Assembly: GCA_904395845.1 (NCBI GenBank)
Contig: CAJFOH010000032.1
Location: 1 to 37,886, forward strand
Direction: 5' to 3'
Origin: an uncultured Lachnospiraceae bacterium
Lineage (GTDB): Bacteria > Bacillota > Clostridia > Lachnospirales > Lachnospiraceae
Length of the DNA stretch: 37,886 nucleotides
The translations under genes and the position numbers were made by a program. This document shows, piece by piece, positions 4,231-15,672 of the stretch; position 1 is the first letter of the stretch; every line of letters starts with the position of its first letter. The notes beneath the pieces are model-generated. The model was not told where the DNA came from. It ran no database searches and was given only the letters and a program-made list of their open reading frames with translations.

Positions 4231-4254
4231 AATAAATCCAATGTGACAATGAAA

Positions 4255-4460
4255 AGGATTAGTATATGAAACTTAGCTTTTTAGAGAGGATAGGGTTGGT
4301 GCAACTATCTAAGCAAAGACATAGAACCTACCTTGGAGTCTTCATGTGAAAGCATGACGTATTCGGCGTTAACGAAGCAATGAGTGAACGATAGTTAATT
4401 AGGGTGGTACCGCCGATAGAAGTTTCGGTCCCTTTGAATAGGGATACGAGGCTTTTTTTA
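4255..4460 (+). promoter_or_regulatory. T-box leader (tRNA-Pro responsive, inferred) upstream of proS
   Basis: T-box core AGGGTGGTACCGC at about 4401, followed by a GTCCCTttgaatAGGGAt hairpin and T-run (about 4430-4462), 5' of an aminoacyl-tRNA synthetase gene. 5' boundary approximate. Confidence 0.88.
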
Positions 4461-4559: not shown

Positions 4560-5996
4560 ATGGCAAAGGAAAAAAAATTAGTAGAAGCCATTACATCTAT
4601 GGATGTGGATTTTGCACAATGGTACACAGATGTTGTGAAGAAAGCAGAATTAATTGATTATTCTAGTGTAAAAGGATGTATGGTAATTAAACCAGCAGGT
4701 TATGCAATCTGGGAAAATATTCAAAAGGAATTGGATAAACGTTTTAAAGCAACTGGCGTAGAAAACGTTTATATGCCAATGTTTATTCCAGAAAGTTTAT
4801 TACAAAAGGAAAAAGACCATGTAGAAGGATTTGCACCAGAAGTAGCATGGGTAACTCATGGTGGGTTAAATGAATTACAAGAAAGAATGTGTGTAAGACC
4901 AACATCTGAAACACTATTTTGTGATTTTTATGCAAAGGATATCCAATCTTATCGTGACTTACCAAAAGTTTATAACCAATGGTGTTCTGTTGTTCGTTGG
5001 GAAAAGGAAACAAGACCATTTTTACGTTCTAGAGAATTTTTATGGCAAGAAGGACATACTGCTCATGAAACAGCAGAACAAGCAGAAGAAAGAACCATTC
5101 AAATGCTAAATTTATATGCTGATTTTTGTGAAGAAGTTCTTGCAATTCCTGTAATTAAGGGAAGAAAAACAGACAAAGAAAAGTTTGCAGGAGCAGAAGC
5201 AACCTATACAATCGAAGCATTAATGCACGATGGAAAAGCATTACAATCAGGAACAAGCCACAATTTCGGTGATGGATTTGCAAAGGCGTTTGGTATTCAA
5301 TTTACTGATAAGCAAAATAAATTACAATACGTTCATCAAACATCATGGGGACTTTCTACTCGTTTAATTGGTGGAATTATTATGGTGCATGGAGATGACA
5401 GTGGTCTTGTATTACCACCAAGAATTGCTCCAACACAAGTAATGATTATTCCAATCGCACAACATAAGGAAGGTGTTCTTGATAAGGCATATGAATTAAA
5501 GAGCCAATTAGAAGAAAACTTCCGTGTAAAAGTAGATGCGTCTGACAAAGGACCAGGATTTAAGTTTGCAGAGCAAGAAATGCGTGGTATTCCAGTTCGT
5601 ATTGAACTTGGACCAAAGGATATTGAAGCAAATCAAGGTGTGATTGTACGTCGTGATACAAGAGAAAAGATTGTAGTTTCCTTAGATGAATTAGCAGAAA
5701 AATTAGAAGAAGTATTAAATACTATTCAAGTAGATATGTTAGAGAGAGCAAGAGCTCATAGAGATAGTCATACAGTAAGTGTTACTACTTATGATGAGTT
5801 TAAAGATGCCATTGCTAATAAACCAGGATTTGTAAAAGCAATGTGGTGTGGAGATGAGGCTTGTGAAGTAAAGATTAAAGAAGAAACAACAGCAACTTCT
5901 CGTTGTATGCCATTTAAGCAAGAACAAATTTCAGGACATTGTGTATGCTGTGGAAAAGAAGCAAAAACAATGGTTTACTGGGGAAAAGCATACTAG
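4560..5996 (+). CDS. proS: Prolyl-tRNA synthetase, archaeal/eukaryotic type (no bacterial editing insertion)
   Basis: [108 protein letters not shown]. Confidence 0.97.
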
Positions 5997-8972: not shown

Positions 8973-9638
8973 TTATGAGTTTTTAAATCGAAACTGATTT
9001 TTATGGAAATCCAAAATCCCCTCTTTTTTTAGTTTATTAAGTTCTGTGGACATAGCACTTCGCTCCACACAAAGAAAATCAGCCAGTTCTTGCCTACTAA
9101 ATGGAATGGAAAATATAGTTTCTTTGGAGGAAGTTGCTTCATCAGAAAGATAGGCTAGTAATTTTTCTCTTGTGGTTCGCTTGGACAAATAGCGAATTTT
9201 TTTATTTAAGAAAATATTTTTTCTGGCAAAAATTTTTAACATATTTTCAATGAGTTGATGATGGAATTTACAGGTGGAGGAACAAGTAGTTAAAATTCCA
9301 CCACAATCCAAATATAAAATAAGAGATTCTTCATTGGAAATAACACTAACAGGTAGTGGCTCTTGTTGGAAAAAAGAGAAGGTTTCACCAAATAGTTCAC
9401 CAGTACCAACATTTCCAAAAATCGTCCGATTTCCCAAAATATCTTCATACAAAATTTGAACACTTCCCTGCAATACTACACAAGTATAATGAATGGTAGT
9501 ACCAGCTAAAAAAATAATTTCATTTTTTTCATACGTTTTTGTAAATGCTTTTAAACATGGCAAAAGATGGGGTAGGTCTACTTCATGAATTCCATGAAAT
9601 AAGGGGCATTGCAATATTTTTTTATAATGTTCTGTCAT
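8973..9638 (-). CDS. Crp/Fnr family transcriptional regulator
   Basis: cNMP-like domain (LQGSVQILYEDILGNRTIFGNVGTGELFGETFSF) plus C-terminal HTH (IPFSRQELADFLCVERSAMSTELNKLKKEGILDF); divergent from hcp. Confidence 0.92.
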   Translation of the reverse strand: MTEHYKKILQCPLFHGIHEVDLPHLLPCLKAFTKTYEKNEIIFLAGTTIHYTCVVLQGSVQILYEDILGNRTIFGNVGTGELFGETFSFFQQEPLPVSVISNEESLILYLDCGGILTTCSSTCKFHHQLIENMLKIFARKNIFLNKKIRYLSKRTTREKLLAYLSDEATSSKETIFSIPFSRQELADFLCVERSAMSTELNKLKKEGILDFHKNQFRFKNS

Positions 9639-11724: not shown

Positions 11725-11756
11725 TAATAGAATAAATATAATATAATTTATTACAA

Positions 11757-11949
11757 AAAAAGAAAGCAATGAACAGACTGAGAAGGTATCTGAACATTGC
11801 TTCTTTTTTTAGAAATACAATAGGGGGGAAGTATTTCTAAATCTATTTAAGAAAGGGAGGAGAGCTAATAATTAGCTCTGTTATGAAAAAAATATTTTCA
11901 AATAGGATTTTAAATCCTAGGCAATTTTCTTTGCCTTGTTCTATTTGAT
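11757..11949 (-). ncRNA. Candidate C-rich small regulatory RNA (about 190 nt), undescribed
   Basis: Minus-strand TATAAT (11961-11956) places a TSS near 11949. Predicted RNA has a 3-way junction (11948-11898), a hairpin (11879-11861), single-stranded CUCCUCCC, a hairpin with CCCCCC loop (11838-11811) and an AAGCAAUG...CAUUGCUU terminator followed by U-run (about 11803-11755). No substantial ORF. Not experimentally supported. Confidence 0.5.
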
Positions 11950-11955
11950 GATTTT

Positions 11956-11985
11956 ATTATAGGCAGAAATCGTGAAGAAATCGTG
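11956..11985 (-). promoter_or_regulatory. Predicted promoter of the candidate sRNA: TATAAT plus 11-bp-period direct repeat at the -35 region
   Basis: Plus-strand AGAAATCGTG-a-AGAAATCGTG at 11965-11985; minus-strand TATAAT at 11961-11956; no good -35 hexamer. Confidence 0.5.
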
Positions 11986-12177
11986 TTGTTCATGTGAAAG
12001 TATTTTTAATATCTTATGAATAAATTGTGAACATAGTTTTGAACATAGTTGCAAACATATAAAATATTAAAAGGACAGAAAATTATGTTGTATTTTTTGC
12101 TATTCATTGATATATTAATAGAAACAATAGAAATTAAAAAAACATTATCAGAAATTATATAAAAAAAGAGGTATCCT

Positions 12178-13236
12178 ATGACAATGAATTTCCAATGTCC
12201 AGGGTGTGGTGCAACACTTACTTATAAAGAAGGGACAGACATTTTAAAATGTGAATATTGCGATACGGAAGTATCAATTCAAGCGTTAAAAGAGCGAGAA
12301 GAAGAGAAAACACAGGAAGAACAGTATTCTTTTGATAGACAGCAAGTAGTTAGAGAAGAAGAAGAACAAGATTTTAAAGCATTCCATTGTAGTAGTTGTG
12401 GTGCAGAGCTTCTTACCGATGAATATACAGCAGCTACATTTTGTAGTTTTTGTGGAAGTCCAGCATTGGTAGAGGAGCGACTAACAGGTGAGAAACGACC
12501 AACACTTATTATTCCATTTAAAATCAATAGGGAGCAGGCAATGGAAAAATATCGTAGTTGGACAAAAAGAGGAATATTAACACCAAAAAAATTTTCCAGT
12601 TCCCAAACATTAGAAACAATTTCAGGAATGTATGTGCCATATTGGTTATATGATTATGATGCAAATGTATCAATGGGGGCACATGGGACAAAAGTGAATG
12701 TAACAAGAAAAGGGGATACAGAGTATATTTACACAAGACACTATGATATTTATCGAAATGTAACCACGCAGTTTGATAGAGTGCCACAAGATGCGTCAGA
12801 AAAAATGGTGGATAGCATTATGGAGCAGTTAGAACCATTTCACTATGAAGATATGACTACATTTGAACTACCATATTTATCAGGTTTTTTGGCTGAAAAA
12901 TATAACTATACAGGAGAACAGTTACAGCCAAAAGTAGAAGAAAGAGTAAATCAGTTTGCAACTGATATTACAAGAAGTACCATTCAAGGTTATTCTAGTG
13001 TTGCTGTCACTTATTCCAATACAAATTTGTCAAAAATTGATATGGTGTATGCCATGTTTCCAGTTTGGACATTAAATTATACATATCGAGGAAAATTATA
13101 TACTCTTACTATGAATGGGCAAACAGGTAAGATGGTAGGAACATTACCAATCAGTCCGAAAAAAGCCTTTGCGATTTGGGGAATTGGAAGTGTGGTATGT
13201 TTTCTTTTATTACTTATAATAGGGGGAATGGTATAA
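12178..13236 (+). CDS. Zinc-ribbon membrane protein with two CxxC...CxxC ribbons and C-terminal TM helix
   Basis: FQCPGCGATLTYKEGTDILKCEYCDTEV and FHCSSCGAELLTDEYTAATFCSFCGSPALVEERL; C-term AFAIWGIGSVVCFLLLLIIGGMV. Confidence 0.75.
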   Translation: MTMNFQCPGCGATLTYKEGTDILKCEYCDTEVSIQALKEREEEKTQEEQYSFDRQQVVREEEEQDFKAFHCSSCGAELLTDEYTAATFCSFCGSPALVEERLTGEKRPTLIIPFKINREQAMEKYRSWTKRGILTPKKFSSSQTLETISGMYVPYWLYDYDANVSMGAHGTKVNVTRKGDTEYIYTRHYDIYRNVTTQFDRVPQDASEKMVDSIMEQLEPFHYEDMTTFELPYLSGFLAEKYNYTGEQLQPKVEERVNQFATDITRSTIQGYSSVAVTYSNTNLSKIDMVYAMFPVWTLNYTYRGKLYTLTMNGQTGKMVGTLPISPKKAFAIWGIGSVVCFLLLLIIGGMV

Positions 13237-14153
13237 TGGTAGAAAAAATTGTTCAATGGAAAAAACTATCTACAAAGACTATGCTATGCACAAAACTATG
13301 CATGGTACTTTCTACATGTATGTTGCTATTTGTTGTTTGTGGATTTGCAAGTGAAAGTAAATATATATATGATGAGGCAAATCTATATTCTTCCAATGAA
13401 ATAAATCAGTTGGAAAGTGAAATACAATCATTAATAGAAAATGTACAATGTGATATTAAAATAGTAACAGCTTCTTATGTAGGTGAAAATACTGACCAAT
13501 TTATTGATGAGTTCTTTTTTGAACATGATTTTGGATATGGAAGTAGTCGGCGTGGTGTAGTATTTTTTATAGATATGGATAATCGACAGTTTCGTATTTT
13601 TGATTATGATGATAATGGAGAGTTTTTCTTTTCTGATGAAGAAAGAGAACTAATTGCAGATGATATTATGGCCATGTTAGGTGCAGGTCAATATATGGAT
13701 GGGGCAATGTACTTTCTTGAACGAGTACAGTTACAAGGTGAAAGTAATGTTAGTATGGATGAAGAACAATTACAGCAGGAGTTAGAGCAAATCTATGAGC
13801 AATATGATATTGATAATAATGCAGAAGATGTAATTTCAATTTCTCTATCTTCTTCTAGTATGGAAGATATAATGATACGTTTATTAGTTGCAATGGGCGT
13901 TTCTGGTATTTTTGTAGGAATCATTGCATTTGCCACCAATGGAAAGCAAAAAGTATATGGTGGAACGTATGTAAAACAGGACTCTATGAGAATAAATCGA
14001 AAAGTAGACCGTTATACCCATACTACAGTAGTAAAAAGACAAATAGAGCAACAGAAAATGACACAACAACAAAACTCCAGTCATCATTTTGGTGGTGGAA
14101 GTTCAACCCATACTACGTCTAGTGGTGGCCGAAGTAGTGGTGGAGGATTTTAA
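13236..14153 (+). CDS. TPM-domain membrane protein with Gly/Ser-rich C-terminus
   Basis: YIYDEANLYSSNEINQLESEIQSLIENVQCDIKIVTASYVGENTDQFIDEFFFEHDFGYGSSRRGVVFFIDMDNRQFRI matches the TPM pattern; tail HHFGGGSSTHTTSSGGRSSGGGF. ATG at 13236 overlaps the upstream stop (TAATG). Confidence 0.8.
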   Translation: MVEKIVQWKKLSTKTMLCTKLCMVLSTCMLLFVVCGFASESKYIYDEANLYSSNEINQLESEIQSLIENVQCDIKIVTASYVGENTDQFIDEFFFEHDFGYGSSRRGVVFFIDMDNRQFRIFDYDDNGEFFFSDEERELIADDIMAMLGAGQYMDGAMYFLERVQLQGESNVSMDEEQLQQELEQIYEQYDIDNNAEDVISISLSSSSMEDIMIRLLVAMGVSGIFVGIIAFATNGKQKVYGGTYVKQDSMRINRKVDRYTHTTVVKRQIEQQKMTQQQNSSHHFGGGSSTHTTSSGGRSSGGGF

Positions 14154-14221
14154 CCTATCTTGACGGAAAAGAAGAATAATGGCATAATAAACAAAAAAGT
14201 TTTTTAATAAAGGAGATTACT

Positions 14222-14746
14222 ATGGAACAGAAACATCCAATCGTAACATTTGAAATGGAAAATGGAGATATTATTAAGGCTGAATTATATCCAGAAGTTG
14301 CACCAAATACAGTAAATAACTTTGTTAGCTTAGTAAACAAAGGGTTTTACAATGGATTAATTTTCCACCGTGTTATTGCTGGCTTTATGATTCAAGGTGG
14401 TGACCCAGAAGGAATAGGAATGGGTGGCCCAGGATATTCTATTAAGGGTGAATTTACACAAAATGGTTTTACAAACCAATTAAAGCACTCAGCAGGTGTA
14501 TTATCAATGGCTCGTGCCATGAACCCAAACTCAGCTGGAAGCCAATTTTTCATTATGCATAAAAATGCTCCACATTTAGATGGTGCTTATGCAGCATTTG
14601 GTAAAGTAGTAGAAGGAATGGATATTGTAGATAAAATCGCAGATGTTCGTACCGATTACAGCGATAGACCAATGGAAACACAAAGAATGAAAACAGTAAC
14701 TGTTGAAACATTTGGTGTAGAATATCCAGAACCAGAAACATGCTAA
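14222..14746 (+). CDS. Cyclophilin-type peptidyl-prolyl cis-trans isomerase
   Basis: NFVSLVNKGFYNGLIFHRVIAGFMIQGGDPEGIGMGGPGYSIKGEF and SAGSQFFIMHKNAPHLDGAYAAFGKVVEGMDIVDKI. Confidence 0.96.
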   Translation: MEQKHPIVTFEMENGDIIKAELYPEVAPNTVNNFVSLVNKGFYNGLIFHRVIAGFMIQGGDPEGIGMGGPGYSIKGEFTQNGFTNQLKHSAGVLSMARAMNPNSAGSQFFIMHKNAPHLDGAYAAFGKVVEGMDIVDKIADVRTDYSDRPMETQRMKTVTVETFGVEYPEPETC

Positions 14747-15672
14747 TTTATCATAGGTTAGAAACGGAAATGTTAATTGCAATAACAGATGAACCACAAA
14801 TAGCAAGACAATTACAAGAACAAAAACAGTCTGTTATTGGTATATTAAGCCCCAAATCAGTCACCTCGGACTGGTCTGGGGTTTCCTATTTATCAGAGGA
14901 TATTACCCTATTATCTTATGTAAGTGAAGAAAATAGGGGGTATTGTAGGGAAGTTTGTTATCGTATGTTAGGGCTACCAATGGTAATTGGGCAGTTTCAA
15001 ATAGGAGAAGATAGCTATATCATACGGGAAATGGTAGAAGATGATGTAAACCAGCTCTATCCGTTGTATGAAGAACCACATTGGAAACAGTTTTTAGAAC
15101 CACTTCACAAAGAAAAGAAAGTAGAATTGGAGAAAATCAAAGGATATATTACACATAGTTATCCTGTGTATCGTTGTGGTATTTGGTCATTGGTAAAAGG
15201 AAAGAAGAAAGAAGATATACATTCTTGTCTTTATAGTAATGAGAGGGCAACCATTGGAACATTTATCAATGAAAGTAAGAGTAGAACAATTCAAATAGGC
15301 AGAGATGGTAGTGAGAAGAACGTGGCTCAGGTAAAAGTAGCTGAAGATAGCAGGAGAAATGGTGTAGATACTATATTAGATAACAGTAGGCAAGAAGTAA
15401 TCGGAAGAATTTCCTTAGAATATAAGGAATATGGAGATTTTAATGGTTGCTTTTTAGGATATGCTCTAAAAGAGTCAGAGTGTGGAAAAGGAATTGCAAC
15501 GAGAGCTTGCAAATTAGCACTTTCTTATGGAAAAGAGGAATTGGGAGAGGAACATATTTATGCAATAATTCATAAAGATAATCATTTGTCTATCAACATG
15601 GCAAAGCGATTGGGAATGAAAATGGTTGGTAACTATGGAGAAAATGGGATTTATTGTGGGATTATTGCATAG
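14740..15672 (+). CDS. GNAT family N-acetyltransferase with N-terminal extension
   Basis: YIIREMVEDDVNQLYPLYEE, VIGRISLEY, FLGYALKESECGKGIATRACKLAL, AIIHKDNHLSINMAKRLGMKMVG. Start overlaps the PPIase stop (ATGCTAA). Confidence 0.8.
   Translation: MLIYHRLETEMLIAITDEPQIARQLQEQKQSVIGILSPKSVTSDWSGVSYLSEDITLLSYVSEENRGYCREVCYRMLGLPMVIGQFQIGEDSYIIREMVEDDVNQLYPLYEEPHWKQFLEPLHKEKKVELEKIKGYITHSYPVYRCGIWSLVKGKKKEDIHSCLYSNERATIGTFINESKSRTIQIGRDGSEKNVAQVKVAEDSRRNGVDTILDNSRQEVIGRISLEYKEYGDFNGCFLGYALKESECGKGIATRACKLALSYGKEELGEEHIYAIIHKDNHLSINMAKRLGMKMVGNYGENGIYCGIIA

Follow-up and report, generated by a model that had tools for sequence, protein, structure and literature searches.

The locus and its predicted RNA

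We have analysed a stretch of 37,886 nucleotides from an uncultured Lachnospiraceae bacterium (the window). In the interval between hcp and a zinc-ribbon gene its minus strand carries a predicted transcription unit, convergent with hcp, whose promoter and RNA features can be laid out as follows.

12178-15672, plus strand: zinc-ribbon / TPM / PPIase / GNAT gene set, the divergent neighbour of the RNA (TPM assigned by Pfam)
11971-12031, minus strand: six boxes phased at 11 bp, from a pattern match with 1 mismatch; conserved in 114 instances
12031-12026 (TTCACA), 12020-12015 (TTCATA) and 12009-12004 (TTAAAA), minus strand: boxes 1 to 3
11998-11993 (TTCACA), 11987-11982 (AACACG) and 11976-11971 (TTCACG), minus strand: boxes 4 to 6
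11956-11961, minus strand: -10 element TATAAT, 9 bp past the last box, with a predicted start near 11949
11755-11949, minus strand: predicted small RNA of about 190 nt, from fold z-score and homologues
11898-11948, minus strand: 5' three-way junction, confined to the source species and G007
11881-11892, minus strand: arm 1, UUUUUUUCAUAA, antisense to a start codon and the lysine codons after it, from alignments
11861-11879, minus strand: central hairpin AGAGCUAAU/AUUAGCUCU, with covariation on 105 matches
11849-11862, minus strand: arm 2, CUCCUCCCUUUCUU, antisense to an extended Shine-Dalgarno (SD) sequence
11808-11841, minus strand: hairpin AGAAAUAC..GUAUUUCU with a CCCCCC loop, confined to the source species and G007
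11755-11810, minus strand: intrinsic terminator, with its U-run at 11761-11755

The first-pass annotation had described an unusually structured minus-strand unit at this place, and the folding energies agree with it. Residues 11955-11750 (206 nt) fold at -55.4 kcal/mol, compared with -26.5 +/- 3.5 for dinucleotide shuffles (z -8.4; 0 of 200 shuffles). The TATAAT at 11961-11956 lies where that annotation had put it, and the hairpin AGAGCUAAU/AUUAGCUCU, the linker CUCCUCCCUUUCUU, the CCCCCC-loop hairpin and the U-run terminator are all found in the sequence. When the 5' domain is folded alone (-12.9 kcal/mol), it takes the three-way form that had been drawn, with the helix UCAAAUA/UAUUUGA around two hairpins; the same closing helix is absent from the minimum-energy structure of the whole 206-nt RNA. 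In G007, the nearest relative, the closing helix of this domain is retained. The second inner hairpin could re-form there through double changes (AGGAUUU/AAAUCCU to AGCAAU/AUUGCU), and the minimum-energy fold of G007 retains it only in part. Two features had escaped the earlier reading: the second antisense arm (UUUUUUUCAUAA against AUGAAAAAA) and the array of boxes with 11-bp phasing.

The zinc-ribbon/TPM/PPIase/GNAT set is a conserved flank of the RNA in many genera; the zinc-ribbon protein itself (12178-13236, plus strand) has no Pfam match. The other side varies. The convergent neighbour is hcp only in the source genome (G000) and in G007, and elsewhere it is an AGCS Na/Ala symporter, a glutamine synthetase, a Ca/Na antiporter or another gene (gene names outside the window were read from sequence). 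A link to nitric oxide or redox stress had been proposed from the neighbourhood of hcp. We do not follow this proposal, as hcp adjoins the RNA in these two genomes only and the promoter resembles htrA promoters and the CssR-type box TTTTCACA. A Crp/Fnr-family regulator is encoded divergently from hcp (8973-9638, minus strand; Pfam) and is more likely than the small RNA to be the redox/NO regulator of hcp. Elsewhere in the window a T-box leader (4240-4436, plus strand; RF00230, 118.6 bits) lies upstream of an ORF (4560-5996) that looks like a prolyl-tRNA synthetase; it is the only Rfam family at gathering score in the window.

A conserved core in Lachnospiraceae

A DNA search of the genus finds the RNA in 7 of 8 genomes; the match in G006 (L015) was a spurious 25-nt match and is left out of this count. 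With a covariance model, run under strict filters so that the counts are lower bounds, the RNA was recovered in at least 52 of 397 sampled Lachnospiraceae genomes and at least 41 of 334 genera. The same model matched only two genomes in a class-wide sample of 391, both of them Lachnospiraceae, and a second model built from 105 matches and used with a stricter cut-off gave 46 genomes and 35 genera, again as lower bounds. When a species-level collection of named genomes was scanned with an exact pattern, 112 stretches matched, and almost every one was from Lachnospiraceae. Hungatella hathewayi, Enterocloster and Lacrimispora are among the carriers, and we take them to be members of this family. 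Tandem copies about 225 bp apart occur in some genomes (L048, L090, L109, L123, L132). A search of phages, plasmids and viral contigs for the RNA gave no match. We also considered a repeat element in the source genome and rejected this idea, since there is a single real copy and the remaining matches are short and weak.

The alignment of the seven genus sequences reveals a conserved core together with a conserved promoter, and arm 2 (CUCCUCCCUUUCUU) is invariant in 7 of 7. In the core, UUUUUUUCAUAAUAC comes first and is followed by a 6-11 bp hairpin of the GAGCUGAUAA/UUAUCAGCUC type, then by CUCCUCCCUUU and lastly by an intrinsic terminator. Family-wide, the shared parts are the U-tract with CAU, the hairpin and CUCCUCCCUUU. 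Both CTCCTCCC and TTTTTCATAA are kept in 30 of 30 loci found by the model, a count to be read with the fact that the covariance model itself favours these two motifs. Arm 1 (UUUUUUUCAUAA) is likewise present in 30 of 30 such loci, and in paralogues that were found by promoter alone. The pattern scan demanded arm matches, and arm conservation was therefore not counted from it. When folded, the homologues give an RNA of roughly 110-150 nt with an unpaired 5' part and U-tract, the hairpin, an unpaired C-rich linker and the terminator. The RNA of the source species reaches its length of about 190 nt through the extra 5' three-way junction and the extra hairpin with the CCCCCC loop. Of the C-rich motifs put forward earlier, the CUCCUCCC linker is conserved, while the CCCCCC-loop hairpin, like the three-way junction, is seen in two species only.

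On the 105 matches the central hairpin is 98.2% paired, with double changes in 4 of 7 pairs; 0 of 500 shuffles equal this and none of the slid versions of the alignment equals the real pairing; the covariation result is helped, though, by an alignment that had been fitted to the structure. A terminator follows the core on the minus strand in 111 of 114 instances, compared with 17 in shuffles. Two unlinked second copies under the same promoter (L211 and L212) retain both arms with a completely different hairpin sequence. Because they keep the arms and exchange the hairpin, they provide independent evidence that it is the arms that selection preserves.

A functional plus strand would offer another explanation for this conservation. 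The region would then be a leader with the SD sequence GGGAGGAG, the hairpin and a tiny ORF starting ATGAAAAAA, and GGGAGGAG does precede ATGAAAAAA in all copies. We regard this reading as barely credible. The promoter array, the -10 element and the terminator all run in the minus-strand direction, plus-strand terminators occur in 13 of 114 instances, no more than in shuffles, the hairpin would put about 20-35 nt between SD and ATG, and the length and sequence of the ORF vary among genomes. A plus-strand peptide was rejected on the orientation of promoter and terminator.

The minus-strand unit is, from these comparisons, a predicted conserved small RNA. The general features of an anti-SD small RNA are found in it, namely its own predicted promoter and terminator and a conserved unpaired C-rich stretch complementary to the SD sequence. 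Rfam (release 15) returned no family at gathering score for the RNA stretch or for 20 homologous loci, and our literature search found no description of this RNA and none of any anti-SD small RNA of Lachnospiraceae. Published work on Clostridium phytofermentans includes transcription start site data (PMC5171806). An Rfam scan and a covariance search were among the checks that the first-pass annotation had proposed for its candidate, an undescribed C-rich small RNA with an SD-binding CUCCUCCC linker. The scan found no family at threshold, the search recovered the RNA across Lachnospiraceae with a covarying hairpin, and the candidate is borne out in these respects. By sequence criteria it is a previously uncatalogued RNA that is spread over dozens of genera of gut Lachnospiraceae.

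A phased promoter array and its likely regulator

The consensus of the six boxes over 114 instances is TTCATA, TTCAAA, TTCAAA, TTTACA, AACATG and TTCAYG at a spacing of 11 bp. The distance from the last box to the -10 element is identical in 110 of 114 instances. When 30 genomes were searched with the promoter only, the known copies and three further sites were found, and the reversed pattern gave 0 matches. Two of the further sites are the second copies of the small RNA (L211, L212) and one (L210) lies before a gene for an HtrA-type protease. The upstream regions of 30 htrA loci were compared with the array. Most of these carry boxes ending in CACA in the same phase, 9 bp from a -10-like hexamer, and TTTTCACA boxes are present in two htrA promoters of the same genus. 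The sequence TTTTCACA has been named the canonical CssR box of Bacillus (PMC6749698). As an observation on the htrA genes themselves, most of the upstream regions examined (L219-L242) share the arrangement TTCACA..ATCACA-N5-ATCACA-N9-(-10), a likely conserved regulon signature.

This likeness suggests a putative regulator of the OmpR/PhoB type, belonging to the htrA/CssR kind. Most htrA promoters have CACA-type half-sites, to which those of the small RNA promoters (TTCAYR, TTCAAA) are not identical, and therefore another member of the OmpR family may be the regulator. Among the flanks read, no two-component gene pair stands out beside the small RNA loci or beside the htrA genes. A response-regulator gene before htrA in L245 looks from its sequence to be of the AraC type.

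An anti-SD RNA of the same type could instead be placed under another OmpR-family regulator, such as one for phosphate (PhoP), one that answers to stress from antibiotics or at the cell wall, or a redox regulator like ResD. Its targets would then be mainly metabolic or transport genes. Phased TTNANA repeats are typical of the OmpR/PhoB class and the array would fit this class as a whole. The known RNA nearest in mode, alpha-r14/NfeR1, targets ABC transport and ntrB mRNAs (PMC10746234), and RoxS is controlled by ResDE (PMC8216469). Against this, the promoter search of 30 genomes gave no more than three additional sites, and one of them belongs to an htrA gene. The Pho regulon was considered and rejected, as the half-site repeated in the pst promoters of these genomes is a different one, TTTACA. 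We judge this alternative to be somewhat unlikely.

A different C-rich non-coding unit lies behind the same kind of boxes at two loci (L038, G002:C143:48731; L040, G005:C43:31977). It consists of UUUUUCAUAC, a CCCGGUGG hairpin, a run of 10-12 C, CUCCCUUUUUCAUAAC and a terminator, is convergent with a spoIIID-like gene and is probably a sister RNA.

Two antisense arms, proposed function and known systems

The sequences complementary to the arms are AAAGGGAGGAG for arm 2 and AUGAAAAAA or UUAUGAAAAAAA for arm 1. The arms stand in an order that would let them pair, across the hairpin, with the SD sequence and the start codon of a single mRNA. A cofold with a membrane-protein gene of the source genome (L251, G000:C92) forms 11 + 11 pairs with the hairpin kept, at a net of about -23 kcal/mol. 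The same leader of this best own-genome target is not retained in relatives: a 44% identical relative in G007 is without it at the start taken, and G003 keeps GGGAG..ATGAAAAAG. Target statistics were obtained for 357 genes from a 400-kb sample of one relative, with start codons picked by a simple rule. The real arms bind the initiation regions with a median of -9.7, compared with -3.9 to -9.3 for shuffled arms, and are stronger than 24 of 24 such controls. A hydrophobic N-terminus, by a crude call, is found in 19 of the 35 best-bound genes and in 92 of 357 overall (p = 1.4e-4), with 1 of 24 shuffles equal; this enrichment of secreted proteins arises partly because MKK starts are common in such genes. 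Sites of the form GGGAGG-N3-9-ATGAAAAA number 30 in 8 genomes, against 6 for the reversed pattern, and sit before many lipoproteins, permeases and other membrane proteins. The design of an SD arm, a hairpin and a start-codon arm would provide a rule for spotting targets.

It might be that only CUCCUCCC pairs and that the U-tract with CAU serves as a binding site for a chaperone (Hfq or other) or as a stability element. U-rich single strands are classical chaperone sites and those of this RNA would fit such binding; in addition, alpha-r14 acts through its anti-SD motifs (PMC10746234). However, CAUAA is conserved together with the U-run, even in paralogues with unrelated hairpins, the order and spacing of the arms fit an SD sequence plus a start codon, and both arms form in the cofold. 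We consider a plain anti-SD RNA improbable. Still further from our expectation is a sponge that titrates G-rich RNAs or a protein without acting on mRNA starts, which we hold to be highly improbable. C-rich small RNAs of B. subtilis are bound by the G-rich sponge RosA (PMC8216469), yet complementarity to both SD and start codon, correctly ordered, would not be expected of a decoy.

The reading that we prefer is that of an envelope- or secretion-stress-induced small RNA under OmpR/PhoB-type control that represses export clients through two arms; we give it about an even chance. An OmpR/PhoB-type response regulator would bind the 11-bp repeat array beside the -10 element and turn the gene on. 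This regulator would most likely be the htrA controller or its sister, sensing trouble in protein export or in the envelope. The RNA would present two single-stranded arms joined by a hairpin. On one and the same mRNA, CUCCUCCCUUU would pair with the SD sequence and UUUUUUUCAUAA would cover the start codon together with the lysine codons after it (AUGAAAAAA), so that ribosomes could not load. The outcome would be less synthesis of export clients (membrane and secreted proteins) under stress, because MKK genes with a purine-rich ribosome-binding site largely encode lipoproteins, exported and membrane proteins. The anti-SD arm could also pair unspecifically with many mRNAs. In its most specific form the proposal is tentative and, taken whole, rather doubtful: a CssR-like regulator would induce an RNA whose two arms clamp MKK mRNAs at SD and start codon and shut down export clients in many gut Lachnospiraceae, with paralogues under the same promoter that retain the arms and swap the hairpin.

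The nearest described RNA is alpha-r14/NfeR1 of alphaproteobacteria (SmelA075, RF02344), a trans-acting RNA with an ultraconserved unpaired CCUCCUCCC anti-SD motif, variable stems and a conserved promoter element, which silences mRNAs at the ribosome-binding site (PMC10746234, PMC3927594). The Lachnospiraceae RNA likewise has a conserved unpaired anti-SD motif, a varying stem and a conserved promoter. In contrast to the three hairpins of alpha-r14, each with CCUCCUCCC unpaired, there is one CUCCUCCC here, in the linker after a single hairpin, and a second arm is directed against the start codon; the phylum and the promoter are different as well. The alpha-r14 model was the best sub-threshold match (26.3 bits, gathering score 58.8). 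With this score and without the three hairpins, the RNA is not a member of alpha-r14.

Among Firmicutes RNAs, RoxS/RsaE, FsrA and CsfG of Bacillus and Staphylococcus pair with G-rich or SD stretches through C-rich single strands (PMC8216469). The RNA described here shares with them a C-rich single-stranded region complementary to SD sequences. RoxS is under a two-component system (PMC8216469), and the regulator proposed here is a response regulator. Unlike these RNAs, it has the U-tract/CAU arm and different promoter boxes, and the Rfam scan gave no match to them. In the CssRS secretion-stress regulon of Bacillus subtilis, TTTTCACA-type boxes overlap the -35 region and htrA is a target (PMC6749698). 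The array described here has the same phase and distance as the htrA promoters, with half-sites TTCAYR/TTCAAA that are not exactly TTTTCACA. Our literature search found no small RNA of the CssRS regulon.

In the human gut, Lachnospiraceae rank as one of the major bacterial families. The RNA is widespread and readily recognised, and cultured species of Hungatella, Enterocloster and Lacrimispora carry it. MicA and RybB are the sigma-E small RNAs of enterobacteria, which lower outer-membrane protein synthesis under envelope stress. The likeness to them concerns the proposed role only, an envelope stress that leads to an RNA stopping envelope-protein synthesis; there is no sequence relation, and a response regulator is proposed instead of a sigma factor. 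If the promoter has been read correctly, the RNA would be a Gram-positive counterpart of the sigma-E small RNAs, and whether monoderms cut the flow of exported proteins by an RNA under envelope stress would become a testable question.
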